NCBI GenBank assembly: GCA_016458225.1
Contig: JAEMGR010000005.1
Location: 434,001-498,000, forward strand
Direction of reading: 5' to 3'
Length of the DNA stretch: 64,000 nucleotides
Source: Myxococcaceae bacterium JPH2
GTDB lineage: Bacteria > Myxococcota > Myxococcia > Myxococcales > Myxococcaceae
The translations under genes and the position numbers were made by a program. The notes below the pieces were generated by a model. It worked only from the letters and a program-made list of their open reading frames with translations. It made no database searches and was not told the DNA's origin. The stretch's first letter is position 1. The number at the start of each line of letters is the position of its first letter. Shown here piece after piece: positions 12,941 to 18,097 of the stretch.

Positions 12941-13939
12941 TCAAAGAAACCGCCAGCGCCACGTGCGGACATCCGACGGGTCTGGCAGCTCCAGCTCGAA
13001 GGAGAGCATCTCGAAGCGCTCGTACTCGCGCGGGTCCACGCGCAGGAGCGTCATGCCCGTGTGGTTGCGCCCGCGCAGCGGCGACACCGTGAAGGACAGC
13101 TCCGCGTCGAAGGCCACTTTGTAGAAGAGGCACAGGCCATCCACGCGCCCGCTCTCCACCACGGGCCGCTCGTAGCGCACGACGCTGGGCAGGCCGTCCA
13201 CGGCCATGGTCTCCAGGTCGAAGGCGAAGGACGGCTCGGGCTCGCACAGGAGGTGCTCCACCTCGTACGAGCGCACCAGCCGCGTGAAGTACGAGGGGCT
13301 CATCGCCTCGCGCAGCGACTGCAGGCAGCGGTAGTCCACGCTGGGGAAGCGCTGGCTCCAGATGAACGGGATGCAGGCCTCGTCGCGAAGCTGCACCGGC
13401 TCCACGAACACCTCGAAGCGATTGGGCAGGATGCGCCCACCTGGCCGCAGCAGGCGCGAGCGCAGGTCGAGCATCCGCGGCACCATGCCCGCGTCGAACA
13501 GCGCATCCCCCAGCAGCTCGTGCAGGAGCACGTCCGCGCGCTCCTGCGACTGGAAGCGACGGGGCGGCTCGCGCACGAAGTCGATGTGGTCCAGCCCGTT
13601 GCGCCGCGCCACCCACTGCGTGGTGTCCAGGAGCCGCGAGTCATCCACCGCGTACAGCTTGCGCGGGTGGCGCGAGGCGGCCAGGAACGTGCGCAGGCCC
13701 GTGCCCGTGCACACGTCCACCACCACCTGTCCGGTGCGCACGTAGCGCTCGATGGCCAGGCGCCACACCTCCACGCGCTCGGGGTCCGCGAGCATCGAGT
13801 CCTGGGGCGCGGGGCTCGACAGGTTGAAGCTCTCCGGAACGACGTTGCGCCGCTGGAGCTGAGACACCAGGGGCAGGTGGCTCAGCCGCGAGCGAAAATC
13901 CAGCAGTGCCTGGCGTGGCAGATCGAGCAGGTTCGGCAT
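12941..13939 (-). CDS. PRMT-like SAM-dependent methyltransferase
   Basis: A 332-aa protein starting MPNLLDLPRQALLDF. The Rossmann part has motif I VVDVCTGTG (residues 73 to 81), then KLYAVDDS for the ribose-binding acid. What follows resembles the protein arginine methyltransferase fold rather than a generic methyltransferase: ADVLLHELLGDALFDAGM corresponds to the double-E loop, then LLRPGGRILPNRFEVFVEPVQL leads into a beta-barrel-like C-terminal half ending in FTVSPLRGRNHTGMTLL, which aligns with the THW-loop area. Glu141 matches the first glutamate, but the second position is Ala150, so classical arginine methylation is doubtful. PRMT-like proteins are uncommon in bacteria. Substrate unknown. 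It lies between the ABC ATPase and WS/DGAT genes on the same strand. Confidence 0.7.
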   Translation of the reverse strand: MPNLLDLPRQALLDFRSRLSHLPLVSQLQRRNVVPESFNLSSPAPQDSMLADPERVEVWRLAIERYVRTGQVVVDVCTGTGLRTFLAASRHPRKLYAVDDSRLLDTTQWVARRNGLDHIDFVREPPRRFQSQERADVLLHELLGDALFDAGMVPRMLDLRSRLLRPGGRILPNRFEVFVEPVQLRDEACIPFIWSQRFPSVDYRCLQSLREAMSPSYFTRLVRSYEVEHLLCEPEPSFAFDLETMAVDGLPSVVRYERPVVESGRVDGLCLFYKVAFDAELSFTVSPLRGRNHTGMTLLRVDPREYERFEMLSFELELPDPSDVRTWRWRFL

Positions 13940-14096: not shown

Positions 14097-14891
14097 TCAG
14101 TGGGAAGCAGTCGAGTCCGCGGGGGCGTGCCGCGCGCGGCGCTCCAACCAGTCATGCAGGAAGGCGCGCACCGCGGGGTGACGGGACTGGCGGAACACGT
14201 CCGGCGGAGCGTGCTCCACGATGCGGCCTTCGTGCAGCAAGGCCAGGTGGTCCCCCACCTCGAAAGCGGTGGCCACATCCGGCGTGATGACGAGCGAGGT
14301 GGCGTGGAGCTGCTGCTTCGCCATGACCATGACGTCCACCACCGAGCGCGTCTTGAGCGGATCCAACCCCGCGGTGGGGTCGTCGTAGAGCAGCACCGAC
14401 GGCTCCAGCACCATGGCGCGAGCGAACGCCGCGCGCTTGAGCATGCCGCCCGACAGCTCCCCCGGGTACTGGTCCGCCGCGGCCTCCAGGTCCACCATCA
14501 CCAGCGCGCGCCGCACGCGCTCGCGCACCTGACGCTCGGGCAGACGCGCCCGCTCGCGCAGCGGGAAGGCGACGTTGTCGAAGACGGTGAGCGAGTCGAA
14601 CAGCGCCCCGCCCTGGAAGAGGATGCCCAGCTTGCGCCGCACCCGGTCCAGGTCCACCACGCCCAGTCGAGACAGGTCCTCGCCCGCCACGCGCACGGTG
14701 CCCCGGTCCGGCTGGAGCAGCCCGTCGATGAGCTTCATCAACACCGTCTTACCGGAACCGGACACCCCGAGGAGTACACAGGTGGTGCCCTCGGGAACGA
14801 CGAGGCTCACGCCCGCGAGCACCGACTGGTCACCAAACGACTTGTGCACATCCAGGAGCTCGATCGCCGGCCGTCGTCCGGGCTCGCCCAT
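14097..14891 (-). CDS. ABC transporter ATP-binding protein, MlaF/Ttg2A-like
   Basis: A 264-aa ATPase starting MGEPGRRPAIELLDVHKSFG; an in-frame start 12 codons earlier is possible. It has Walker A GVSGSGKT, a Q-loop GILFQGGALFDSLTVFDNV, the signature LSGGMLKRAAFARAM, Walker B VLLYDDPTAGLDP and the switch His region SLVITPDVATA. FQGGALFDSLTVFDNVAFPLRE and the DPTAGLDPL sequence are typical of the MlaF/YrbF group, which drives phospholipid or hydrophobic-compound movement at the cell envelope. In most such proteins the switch residue is His in SxxVTHD; here the Walker-B-following loop reads VITPD, lacking that His. No MlaE permease or MlaD gene is adjacent, so its membrane partner must be encoded elsewhere. 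Confidence 0.85.
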   Translation of the reverse strand: MGEPGRRPAIELLDVHKSFGDQSVLAGVSLVVPEGTTCVLLGVSGSGKTVLMKLIDGLLQPDRGTVRVAGEDLSRLGVVDLDRVRRKLGILFQGGALFDSLTVFDNVAFPLRERARLPERQVRERVRRALVMVDLEAAADQYPGELSGGMLKRAAFARAMVLEPSVLLYDDPTAGLDPLKTRSVVDVMVMAKQQLHATSLVITPDVATAFEVGDHLALLHEGRIVEHAPPDVFRQSRHPAVRAFLHDWLERRARHAPADSTASH

Positions 14892-15016
14892 CGCGCATCC
14901 CCCCGTATGGCCCGGCAGCCTTCGCACGCGCCGGTGCCGGGGGAGCAGTGTGCCGCGCGTCGCGTCCGCGCGGCAGTGGTCCGAGGGGCTCGCTCCGTGT
15001 CAGCCAGACACCATCG

Positions 15017-18000
15017 TCAGCGCGAGCGCACCATCATCCCGAACGCACGCAGGCGATCCCTCGCGCGCAGGAGCTTGGCCATGGGAATGGAGAACACCGC
15101 GCGCACGCGCTCGGGGTCCCCGCACCACGCGCCGCCGTTGAGCACCACGCGCGTGTGCGTGTAGACGATGCGCGGCAGGTTCTCCGGCGTGAGGCGCTCC
15201 CCGTCCACCTCGCGCCCCAGCCACGCCGTCACGCGCGGCGCGAGGAACAGGCCGCCCACCTCGGCGGACTCAGCGAGCCCTGAGTCCGGCAGCACCTCCG
15301 CCAGCAGCGCGCGCTTCTCCGCCAGCTCGCGGCGCATCTTCCCCAGGAAGTCGCGCAGGGCGCGGTGTCGCGCCGCGTACAGGAGCTGTCCCTCGGGGCT
15401 GCGCGCATAGGCCGCGTAGAGGTACGCCGCCGCGCGCGCGGTGGGCAGGTGCAGCGCACCCGGTCCGCTGTCGCGCAGCGCTTGAGCGAGCGCCCGGTCC
15501 CTCGTGGCCAGCCAGCCCACGCGCAGCCCGCCCGCGGCGAACTCCTTGGACAGTCCGCCCAGGATGACCGTGCGCGCGCCCACGCCCGGCACCGCGCCCT
15601 CCAACGTGACGGGGCTGTGCACCGTCTCGGCGGTGGGGTTGGTGAGGTGCACCAGGCCGAAGATTTCGTCGGACACCAGCAGGCACCGCTGCTCCACCAC
15701 GTACGTGGCCAGGGCCACCAGCTCCTGATGCGTCAGGTACGTGCCCGCGGGGTTGGAGGGCTGGGACACCACCACCGCATCGGGAGAACCCGCGCCCCGG
15801 CGCGCGAGCAGCGAGGCGAGCGTCCCCAGCTCCACCTCGCATCCCGCCGCGACAAACGTGGGCGGCAGGACGCCGTAGCAAGGCGTGGCCAGGAACACGC
15901 GGGGCGCGCGACCCAACCGCTGGCGCAGCGCCACACCGAGGTGATGCACGAGCGGCCACACGCCCGGAGCCAGCACCAGCTCATCCGGCGAATAGCGCGC
16001 GCCGCGCGTCTCCAAGAGGAACGACGTGAGCGCCTCGGCCAGGCCCGTCTGCGTGCCCGCGGCGGGCGGAGCGACACTGGCCGCGACGAGCCCCTCCACC
16101 AGCGGCGGCGGCAACGGGCCCTCGTTCTCGCCGTAGTCCAGCCGCACCAGCTCCGGATCCTCCTCGCGGAAGATGCGGGGCAGGAAGGCGGGGAACGTGG
16201 ACAGGTGCGCGATGCGCTTCGAGCGCGGCAGCGGCACCTCGGGCTTCGGGCGCGGCGCGGGCGGCGCGGGCTCGGCGAAGGCGAGGCGGAAGGCGAGCAG
16301 CTCCGCGAAGGTGCGCTCGTAGAACCACTGCGCCAGCGTGCTGATGCGCGAGTACGTCACCTCCGCGGCCACCTCCAGGTCGGCGCGCAGGGGCTCGGGC
16401 ACGGGCAACAGCAGCGTCAGCTCCAGGTCCGGCCACACTGCGTTCTTGATGAGGCCATAGAGGACCACCAGGTTGGGCGCGGGCACCTCGCGGGCGAGGA
16501 ACTCGAACAGCGTGCGCGGCTCCACGCCGCCGGTGATGTTGAAGAAGGCGCTCTCGTCCAGCACCACCCAGATGCCACGCCGCGCGGCCTCCGCGACGAT
16601 GTCGCGCAGCACGGCCAGGTTGGTGCGCTCGCCGGGCTCCACCGTGAGGAACACCGCCTTCACGTCGAACGCGGTCAGCAAACGCTGAATTTCTCCCAGC
16701 GACGTGTGCGTCACCGTGGCGCGCACGCCCGCCTTGTCCAGCGCGCGGGCGTAGAGCGGGTGCAGGCTGCGAGACACGAGCACCTCGTCGCCCGGATCGC
16801 ACATGGACAAGAGGAGCGAGTACACCGCCTGCTCACGCTCGGGCGCGACGAACAGCGCGTCCTCGGCCAGTCGGAGGCCGAAGTAGCGATCCAGGTAGCG
16901 CGACACCAGGCGGCGGAACGGCGCGTCGCCCGCCTCGTGCGCGTACGGCAGCTCCGGCGTTCGCGCCAACCGCCCCGCCAGCGACGCCGCGAACCCGAGC
17001 TGCTCGGCGGACGCCGCCCCCAGGTCCAGCTCCTCCTGGAGCGAGGCGATGTCCAGCTTCCGCAAGGACGCACGCAGCGCCAGCGTCTCGCGAGGAAGGG
17101 CGAGGTTCGCCTCCCAGACGGCCACCTCGTGCCAGATGGGATTGCCCGCCTGCAGCCACCCGAGCGCGGTGGCGGCGCGCAGCGGCTCGGGGCTGTGGGC
17201 CTCCATGAAGAACTCGAACTCGCGTCCGGTGCGCTGCTCCAGCGCCACCAGCGGGCGGATGTCCGTGTCCGCCGCCTGCATCACCCGGCGCGCCACGCTC
17301 ACATGGGTGGCGAAGCCTCGGCGCGTGAACATGCGCTCGATGATGGCGCGGCCCGGCCGGCCCGCGAGGTTCAGCAGCAGCCGGCCACCCGGCGCCAGTC
17401 GCTCCGGCGCCTCGTCCAACAGGCGCGCGATGAGGCCCAGGCCGAAGTGGTCCTCGTAGACGTTCTGGAGCGTGCAGTAATTGGAGAGGTCGTAGAGCGC
17501 CTGCTCATCCGCCTGGGACAGCTCCAGCTCCGCGGGGAGTCCCTCGCCGCGCAGCACCTGCGGGATGCATCCGACGATGAAGTCCCACGAGGGCGTCTCG
17601 GGCAGGCCACGCAACAGGTCGCTCTCGCCAAAGGACAGGCGCGACACGAGCTGCTCATCACCGTTGAGCCACGCGTTGCACAACCCGACCACCGGCGCGT
17701 GCGGGTTGAGGTCCATGCCATGGATGCGAGAGAGCCCGGTGAACTTCGCCAGCGCCAGGCAGATCCACCCCGAGCCCGAGCCCACCTCCACCAGCCGCTT
17801 TCCCGCGTACTCGTCCAGCGGCACCTTCAAGAGCCCTTCGAGGAAGGTGAAGGCCCACGCCTCGGGCGCGAAGATGGAGGGCAACAGGAACAGCTCCAGC
17901 CGCTCCTGCGACGCGCCCACCGCCACCACCACCTGCTCCAGGCGCAGCGGGGCGTTCTCGGGCTTGCCTCGTGCCAGCTCCGCCAGCGCGCGCAGCTCCG

Positions 18001-18097
18001 TCAGGGCCTGGCCGCGCCGCTCGGGTTGGCGCAGGTCCTCGGCGAGGGCTCGCAGCTGTTGGAAGGCTTCGCGGGGGGTCGCGGGATAGGTCGCCAT
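15017..18097 (-). CDS. Plant-type methionine S-methyltransferase (methyltransferase plus two aminotransferase-like domains)
   Basis: A 1026-aa protein. It should methylate L-methionine with SAM to S-methylmethionine. The start MATYPATPREAFQQL follows common codon use, though the Shine-Dalgarno is weak. Residues 60 to 330 are the methyltransferase: motif I VEVGSGSGWICLALA (103 to 117), DLNPHAP, IVGCIPQVLRGEG, then LYDLSNYCTLQNVYEDHFG, RPGRAIIERMF, VMQAADTDIRPLVALE and FEFFMEAH. These blocks match plant MMT as I remember it, including the IVGCIPQ and EDHFGLGLIAR signatures. Residues 380 to 650 are a degenerate aminotransferase-like domain (VVLYGLIKNAVWPDLE). Residues 690 to 1026 form a second type I aminotransferase fold with LDYGENEG, VVSQPSNPAGTYL, VSDEIFGLVH and the PLP-lysine motif LSKEFAAGGLRVGW (Lys851, Arg859). 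Full-length architecture and length equal the plant enzyme, far longer than the bacterial MmtN type. Physiological role here is unknown. Confidence 0.82.
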   Translation of the reverse strand: MATYPATPREAFQQLRALAEDLRQPERRGQALTELRALAELARGKPENAPLRLEQVVVAVGASQERLELFLLPSIFAPEAWAFTFLEGLLKVPLDEYAGKRLVEVGSGSGWICLALAKFTGLSRIHGMDLNPHAPVVGLCNAWLNGDEQLVSRLSFGESDLLRGLPETPSWDFIVGCIPQVLRGEGLPAELELSQADEQALYDLSNYCTLQNVYEDHFGLGLIARLLDEAPERLAPGGRLLLNLAGRPGRAIIERMFTRRGFATHVSVARRVMQAADTDIRPLVALEQRTGREFEFFMEAHSPEPLRAATALGWLQAGNPIWHEVAVWEANLALPRETLALRASLRKLDIASLQEELDLGAASAEQLGFAASLAGRLARTPELPYAHEAGDAPFRRLVSRYLDRYFGLRLAEDALFVAPEREQAVYSLLLSMCDPGDEVLVSRSLHPLYARALDKAGVRATVTHTSLGEIQRLLTAFDVKAVFLTVEPGERTNLAVLRDIVAEAARRGIWVVLDESAFFNITGGVEPRTLFEFLAREVPAPNLVVLYGLIKNAVWPDLELTLLLPVPEPLRADLEVAAEVTYSRISTLAQWFYERTFAELLAFRLAFAEPAPPAPRPKPEVPLPRSKRIAHLSTFPAFLPRIFREEDPELVRLDYGENEGPLPPPLVEGLVAASVAPPAAGTQTGLAEALTSFLLETRGARYSPDELVLAPGVWPLVHHLGVALRQRLGRAPRVFLATPCYGVLPPTFVAAGCEVELGTLASLLARRGAGSPDAVVVSQPSNPAGTYLTHQELVALATYVVEQRCLLVSDEIFGLVHLTNPTAETVHSPVTLEGAVPGVGARTVILGGLSKEFAAGGLRVGWLATRDRALAQALRDSGPGALHLPTARAAAYLYAAYARSPEGQLLYAARHRALRDFLGKMRRELAEKRALLAEVLPDSGLAESAEVGGLFLAPRVTAWLGREVDGERLTPENLPRIVYTHTRVVLNGGAWCGDPERVRAVFSIPMAKLLRARDRLRAFGMMVRSR

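Follow-up and report, generated by a model that had tools for sequence, protein, structure and literature searches.

The gene described here is a member of the already known Group III family of methionine S-methyltransferases (MMTs). On the evidence of its sequence, we consider it fairly probable that it encodes an enzyme forming S-methylmethionine (SMM), fused to a domain that is probably PLP-competent. The gene lies in a 64,000-nt stretch of DNA, referred to here as the window, from Myxococcaceae bacterium JPH2 (GCA_016458225.1, contig JAEMGR010000005.1, forward-strand positions 434,001 to 498,000). The features of the enzyme are as follows.

15017..18097, minus strand: full-length Group III methionine S-methyltransferase, 1026 aa, ATG at 18097, stop at 15017-15019
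17108..18097, minus strand: N-terminal SAM-dependent methyltransferase (MT) half, residues 1-330, best PDB match MmtN 7vvv
16283..17011, minus strand: PLP1, truncated PLP fold-type I domain, approximately residues 363-605, large domain only
15023..16237, minus strand: PLP2, complete PLP fold-type I domain, residues 621-1025, with N782, D810, K851, R859 and R999 intact
15545..15547, minus strand: codon of K851, the predicted PLP Schiff-base lysine (GGLSKEFAAGGLRVGW)

An intact full-length dual-domain enzyme

The MMT gene is a single open frame without interruption on the reverse complement of 15017-18097, and its length is close to the roughly 1030 residues given in a first-pass annotation of the same DNA. 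The four motifs quoted there are all present in the translation (IVGCIPQ at residues 174-180, EDHFGLGLIAR at 215-225, MQAADTDI at 273-280 and FEFFM at 294-298), and the myxobacterium-like host that it proposed is borne out by an orthologue with 98% identity in Citreicoccus inhibens, which marks it as a myxobacterium resembling Citreicoccus. The AlphaFold2 model of the whole protein has a mean pLDDT of 86.7 and a pTM of 0.85, with a loop beside the active site (residues 180-218) falling below a pLDDT of 50. Since stop-free full-length orthologues occur in 60 of the 195 genomes of the phylum and the predicted fold is confident, the frame is not a chance product. A spurious GC-rich ORF was considered and rejected: long antisense ORFs are present, yet orthologues and a confident fold were obtained only for the MMT frame.

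The expected plant layout, a methyltransferase followed by a long aminotransferase-like part, is indeed present, but that part consists of two tandem PLP folds rather than one. Dual-domain MMTs are not new for bacteria: the statement that known bacterial enzymes are much shorter overlooked the plant-like 'Group III' MMTs of some Deltaproteobacteria and Oligoflexia (PMC9135737). These enzymes have no linked methionine or DMSP gene, and the role of bacterial plant-like MMTs has been called difficult to predict (PMC9135737).

The methyltransferase half

When the MT half was searched against PDB sequences with single-sequence phmmer, the sole match was MmtN (7vvv, E 1.2e-10). A profile built from eight bacterial homologues recovered the same structure with E 1.3e-21 over positions 76-334, the next best match reaching 7e-7. 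Both searches uphold the earlier placement of this half in the MmtN/MMT family. Its motifs (GxGxG at 106-110, D129, CIPQ at 177-180, EDHFGLGL at 215-222 and QAADTD at 274-279) are nearly invariant in 71 bacterial sequences, which are mostly close relatives from one family, with a few genomes fetched twice, and so do not represent 71 independent observations.

In MmtN, D69 and C121 contact SAM (PMC9135737). The former aligns with D129 of the window enzyme, kept in 69 of the 71 sequences (the other two have gaps there in truncated sequences), and the latter with C177, kept in 68 of 71; G106, G108 and G110 of the SAM-binding GxGxG are conserved across the whole set. Among the residues with which MmtN contacts methionine, E250 falls on E293, which is variable among homologues, and both E127 and R132 are located in a loop whose alignment is poor and uncertain. 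As described for MmtN, the N-terminal half would bind SAM and transfer its methyl group to the sulfur of methionine, yielding SMM and SAH, and SMM formation is the best-supported prediction for the reaction of this enzyme. Separately, weak MT-only matches in three genomes (G003, G022 and G032) were considered as short MMTs and rejected, as these sequences look like PrmC/HemK.

Two tandem PLP folds

Fold-type I enzymes bind PLP through a Schiff-base lysine and ring-binding Asn and Asp residues, and hold the substrate carboxylate with arginines, one at Lys+8 and one near the C terminus. The first of the two domains, PLP1, has a profile that matches aspartate aminotransferases (E 1e-6), and its domain model aligns with 2gb3 at a VIA Z of 20.6, with 228 residues at 3.1 Å. 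Its K551, within GLIKN, aligns with the SK-motif lysine of 1o4s and is present in 66 of the 71 sequences.

PLP2 is matched by Pfam Aminotran_1_2 (E 7e-26), and its profile finds aspartate/prephenate aminotransferases at 1e-28 and ACC synthase at 7e-25. Its predicted structure aligns with the prephenate aminotransferase 6f77 at a VIA Z of 40.5 (370 residues at 2.3 Å) and with ACC synthase at a Z of 36.7. None of the curated NCBIfam subfamilies reached its cut-off. The catalytic set is conserved across the same non-independent collection of bacterial MMTs, with K851, D810 and R859 in 71 of 71 and N782 and R999 in 70 of 71, and all five residues are invariant in eight diverse PLP2 domains down to 34% identity with that of the window MMT. 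Because the lysine and all the ring- and carboxylate-binding residues are present, PLP2 is most likely a PLP-binding domain with an amino acid as its substrate. That this amino acid would be SMM or methionine, processed by transamination, decarboxylation or elimination, is plausible but tentative, and we would not put it at even chances.

One homologue with a decayed MT half was recovered twice (L021:1483-4404, the same gene as L119:6067-8991 of genome G046). In this one draft genome the CIPQ-FGLGL stretch is deleted and QAADTD is lost, and PLP2 keeps LAKEFAAGG. The retention of the PLP2 lysine after loss of the MT motifs suggests that PLP2 has a use apart from methylation.

Relationship to the plant enzyme

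For comparison with plants we used a 1071-residue sequence that we take to be Arabidopsis MMT, called here the putative plant sequence. The window MMT aligns with it end to end at 25.6% identity (E 3e-86). Where bacteria have LSKEF, the plant enzyme presumably has LSLNLL, with Leu at the position of the PLP2 lysine, and it presumably also has SP for the bacterial NP and Lys for R859. Judged from this putative sequence, plant MMT seems to have lost PLP2 active-site residues that the window MMT keeps.

Among the bacterial sequences compared, L122 (G506:C332:16427-19537) comes nearest to the plant enzyme and is much closer to the putative plant sequence than is the window MMT. L122 and the putative plant sequence match end to end at 34% identity with 634 bits, and such a match to an independent bacterial protein argues that the putative sequence is sound. 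L122 has plant-side indels and an intact PLP2 lysine. In a full-length unrooted tree, it forms a pair (100/100) with the putative plant sequence, and every other sequence, including the window MMT, lies outside that pair. Being unrooted, the tree does not in itself demonstrate gene transfer. The description of the window enzyme as plant-type holds for its architecture, but in this tree the window enzyme lies on another branch than the putative plant sequence. In an MT tree with MmtN as outgroup, the MmtN branch was too long to root the others. As the PLP2 lysine is common to all bacterial branches, loss on the plant side is the simpler history.

These comparisons bear on the strongest competing account, which we place somewhat short of an even chance. 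In it the enzyme would be plant-like in function, making only SMM, with the C-terminal part an idle scaffold or regulatory region in which folding, or stability that depends on the cofactor, would account for the retained PLP residues. The architecture is the same as in plants, where MMT is active although the putative plant sequence is without the PLP2 lysine, and of the three parts of the protein conservation is highest in the MT half (61.7% identity between the window MMT and the divergent L058, against 55.7% for PLP1 and 51.5% for PLP2). On the other hand, the Lys, the Asp and both Arg residues are each retained by 70 or 71 of the 71 sequences, even though identity falls to 34-38% between distant PLP2 domains. 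L122 also keeps the PLP2 residues despite being nearest to plants, and L021 keeps the lysine despite its lost MT motifs. We continue to favour an SMM-forming enzyme with a probably PLP-competent second domain.

A more far-reaching history would make bacterial Group III MMTs bifunctional, with SMM being made by the first half and SMM or methionine processed by PLP2. The land-plant gene would then derive from a bacterium on the G506/L122 branch; the PLP activity would have been lost later, leaving SMM formation only. We regard this as speculative and rather unlikely as a whole. Plant MMT is reported to be missing from algae and to have arisen in the ancestor of land plants (PMC6284425). Our literature search, with most subscription journals outside its reach, found nothing on the contrast in the PLP site or on a bacterial source or transfer of plant MMT.

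Distribution and gene neighbourhood

The 60 genomes carry one copy each and belong mostly to two genera of the family of the window; named carriers include Myxococcus xanthus, Corallococcus, Pyxidicoccus and Citreicoccus. Divergent MMTs are sparse elsewhere (L058, L061, L062 and L063), and among the 184 genomes of the order of G506 an MMT was found in G506 only. A Myxococcus-type MMT locus with full synteny also occurs in an entry titled Comamonas sp. KCTC 72670 (L049, BNCN01000002.1), which is probably a mislabelled myxobacterial genome.

Two genes lie downstream of the MMT in the window.

14097..14927, minus strand: ABC transporter ATPase (Pfam ABC_tran, E 3e-29), not part of the enzyme
12941..13936, minus strand: class I methyltransferase, weakly PRMT/PrmA-like (weak Pfam matches below cut-off)

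The ATPase gene occupies the same position beside the MMT in some relatives and is missing in others, and no permease gene lies among its immediate neighbours in the window. The PRMT-like methyltransferase holds its position after the MMT in Myxococcus, Pyxidicoccus and Citreicoccus, whereas the ATPase gene does so in only part of this group. In Corallococcus the MMT sits elsewhere, and neither gene accompanies it. Other genes near the MMT in the window and in relatives include a wax ester synthase and a two-component system. In two members of another family, a gene for an HTTM-like membrane protein (named by eye) precedes the MMT; in L021, it lies 7 bp upstream of the MMT homologue on the same strand.

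No methionine, methionine-cycle, DMSP or NRPS gene is linked to the MMT in the window or in the neighbourhoods of its relatives, in agreement with the remark in the first-pass annotation that no DMSP gene was visible. An Rfam search gave no SAM/SAH riboswitch near the gene, and a promoter and terminator scan at the gene gave nothing informative. The neighbours thus lend no pathway support to a function for the MMT.

It is improbable that the MT half methylates another thioether or amino acid and is an MMT by descent only. The MmtN contacts to methionine are not clearly conserved in the group and a methionine-cycle gene is absent from the neighbourhood, but CIPQ, FGLGL, QAADTD and FEFF also occur in the putative plant sequence. 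Furthermore, bacteria with Group III enzymes are counted among SMM makers (PMC9135737). We also consider it improbable that SMM is a DMSP precursor and that myxobacteria with an MMT make DMSP: the Group III strain Pseudobacteriovorax antillogorgiicola made it, and removal of the amine could in principle be carried out by a PLP domain, but the other three of the four Group III strains assayed gave no DMSP (PMC9135737) and no DMSP gene lies in the MMT neighbourhood.

Possible fate of S-methylmethionine

If SMM is formed, its return to methionine by a plant-type homocysteine S-methyltransferase (HMT) is unlikely in the source genome. A search of the 9.0 Mb genome (assembly 99.6% complete), made with the PF02574 family only, found no stand-alone HMT/MmuM; the sole PF02574 protein is MetH (TIGR02082, 1167 bits against a cut-off of 1011). 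With the only homocysteine S-methyltransferase domain sitting in MetH, a plant-type SMM cycle is unlikely, and the proposal of SMM as a methyl store is disfavoured in so far as the store would be recycled as in plants.

Most other MMT genomes checked likewise have a single PF02574 match, located in an ORF as large as expected for MetH (1182-1474 codons). A second PF02574 protein occurs in two Corallococcus genomes, and the one examined falls below every curated HMT cut-off. In G113, of the same genus as the Corallococcus loci, the PF02574 protein that accompanies a MetH-size one (L125:1409-2785) most resembles homocysteine S-methyltransferase but scores below the curated cut-off, and is possibly an SMM-using enzyme in some Corallococcus. 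G196 carries an HMT-MTHFR fusion. A literature search on SMM in myxobacteria found nothing relevant.

Implications and comparison with known systems

The intact PLP site, missing in the putative plant sequence, offers a concrete test of the purpose of the C-terminal part. Because the MMT is single-copy in the genetically tractable Myxococcus xanthus, both deletion of the gene and mutation of K851 are practicable there. The G506 enzyme, in turn, bears on the origin of plant MMT.

Plant MMT (EC 2.1.1.12) and the bacterial Group III MMTs resemble the window MMT in carrying a long PLP-fold part behind the MT domain, in their length of approximately 1030-1090 aa and in their motifs. The window PLP2 keeps the catalytic Lys, Asn and Arg where the putative Arabidopsis sequence has Leu, Ser and Lys, and the window MMT is without an insert after N145 that the putative plant sequence has in common with L061, L062, L063 and L122. 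MmtN of Groups I and II (7vvv, Roseovarius indicus) has a homologous SAM-dependent methionine S-methyltransferase domain, with D69 and C121 conserved. MmtN is, however, a single domain of 305 aa; the window MMT has no clear match to its methionine-contacting residues and, in contrast to MmtN loci, no linked NRPS or DMSP genes. Compared with the aspartate and prephenate aminotransferases and ACC synthase of PLP fold-type I, PLP2 has the same fold and catalytic residues at approximately 20% identity, but in the window it is fused behind a truncated PLP1 and an MT domain.
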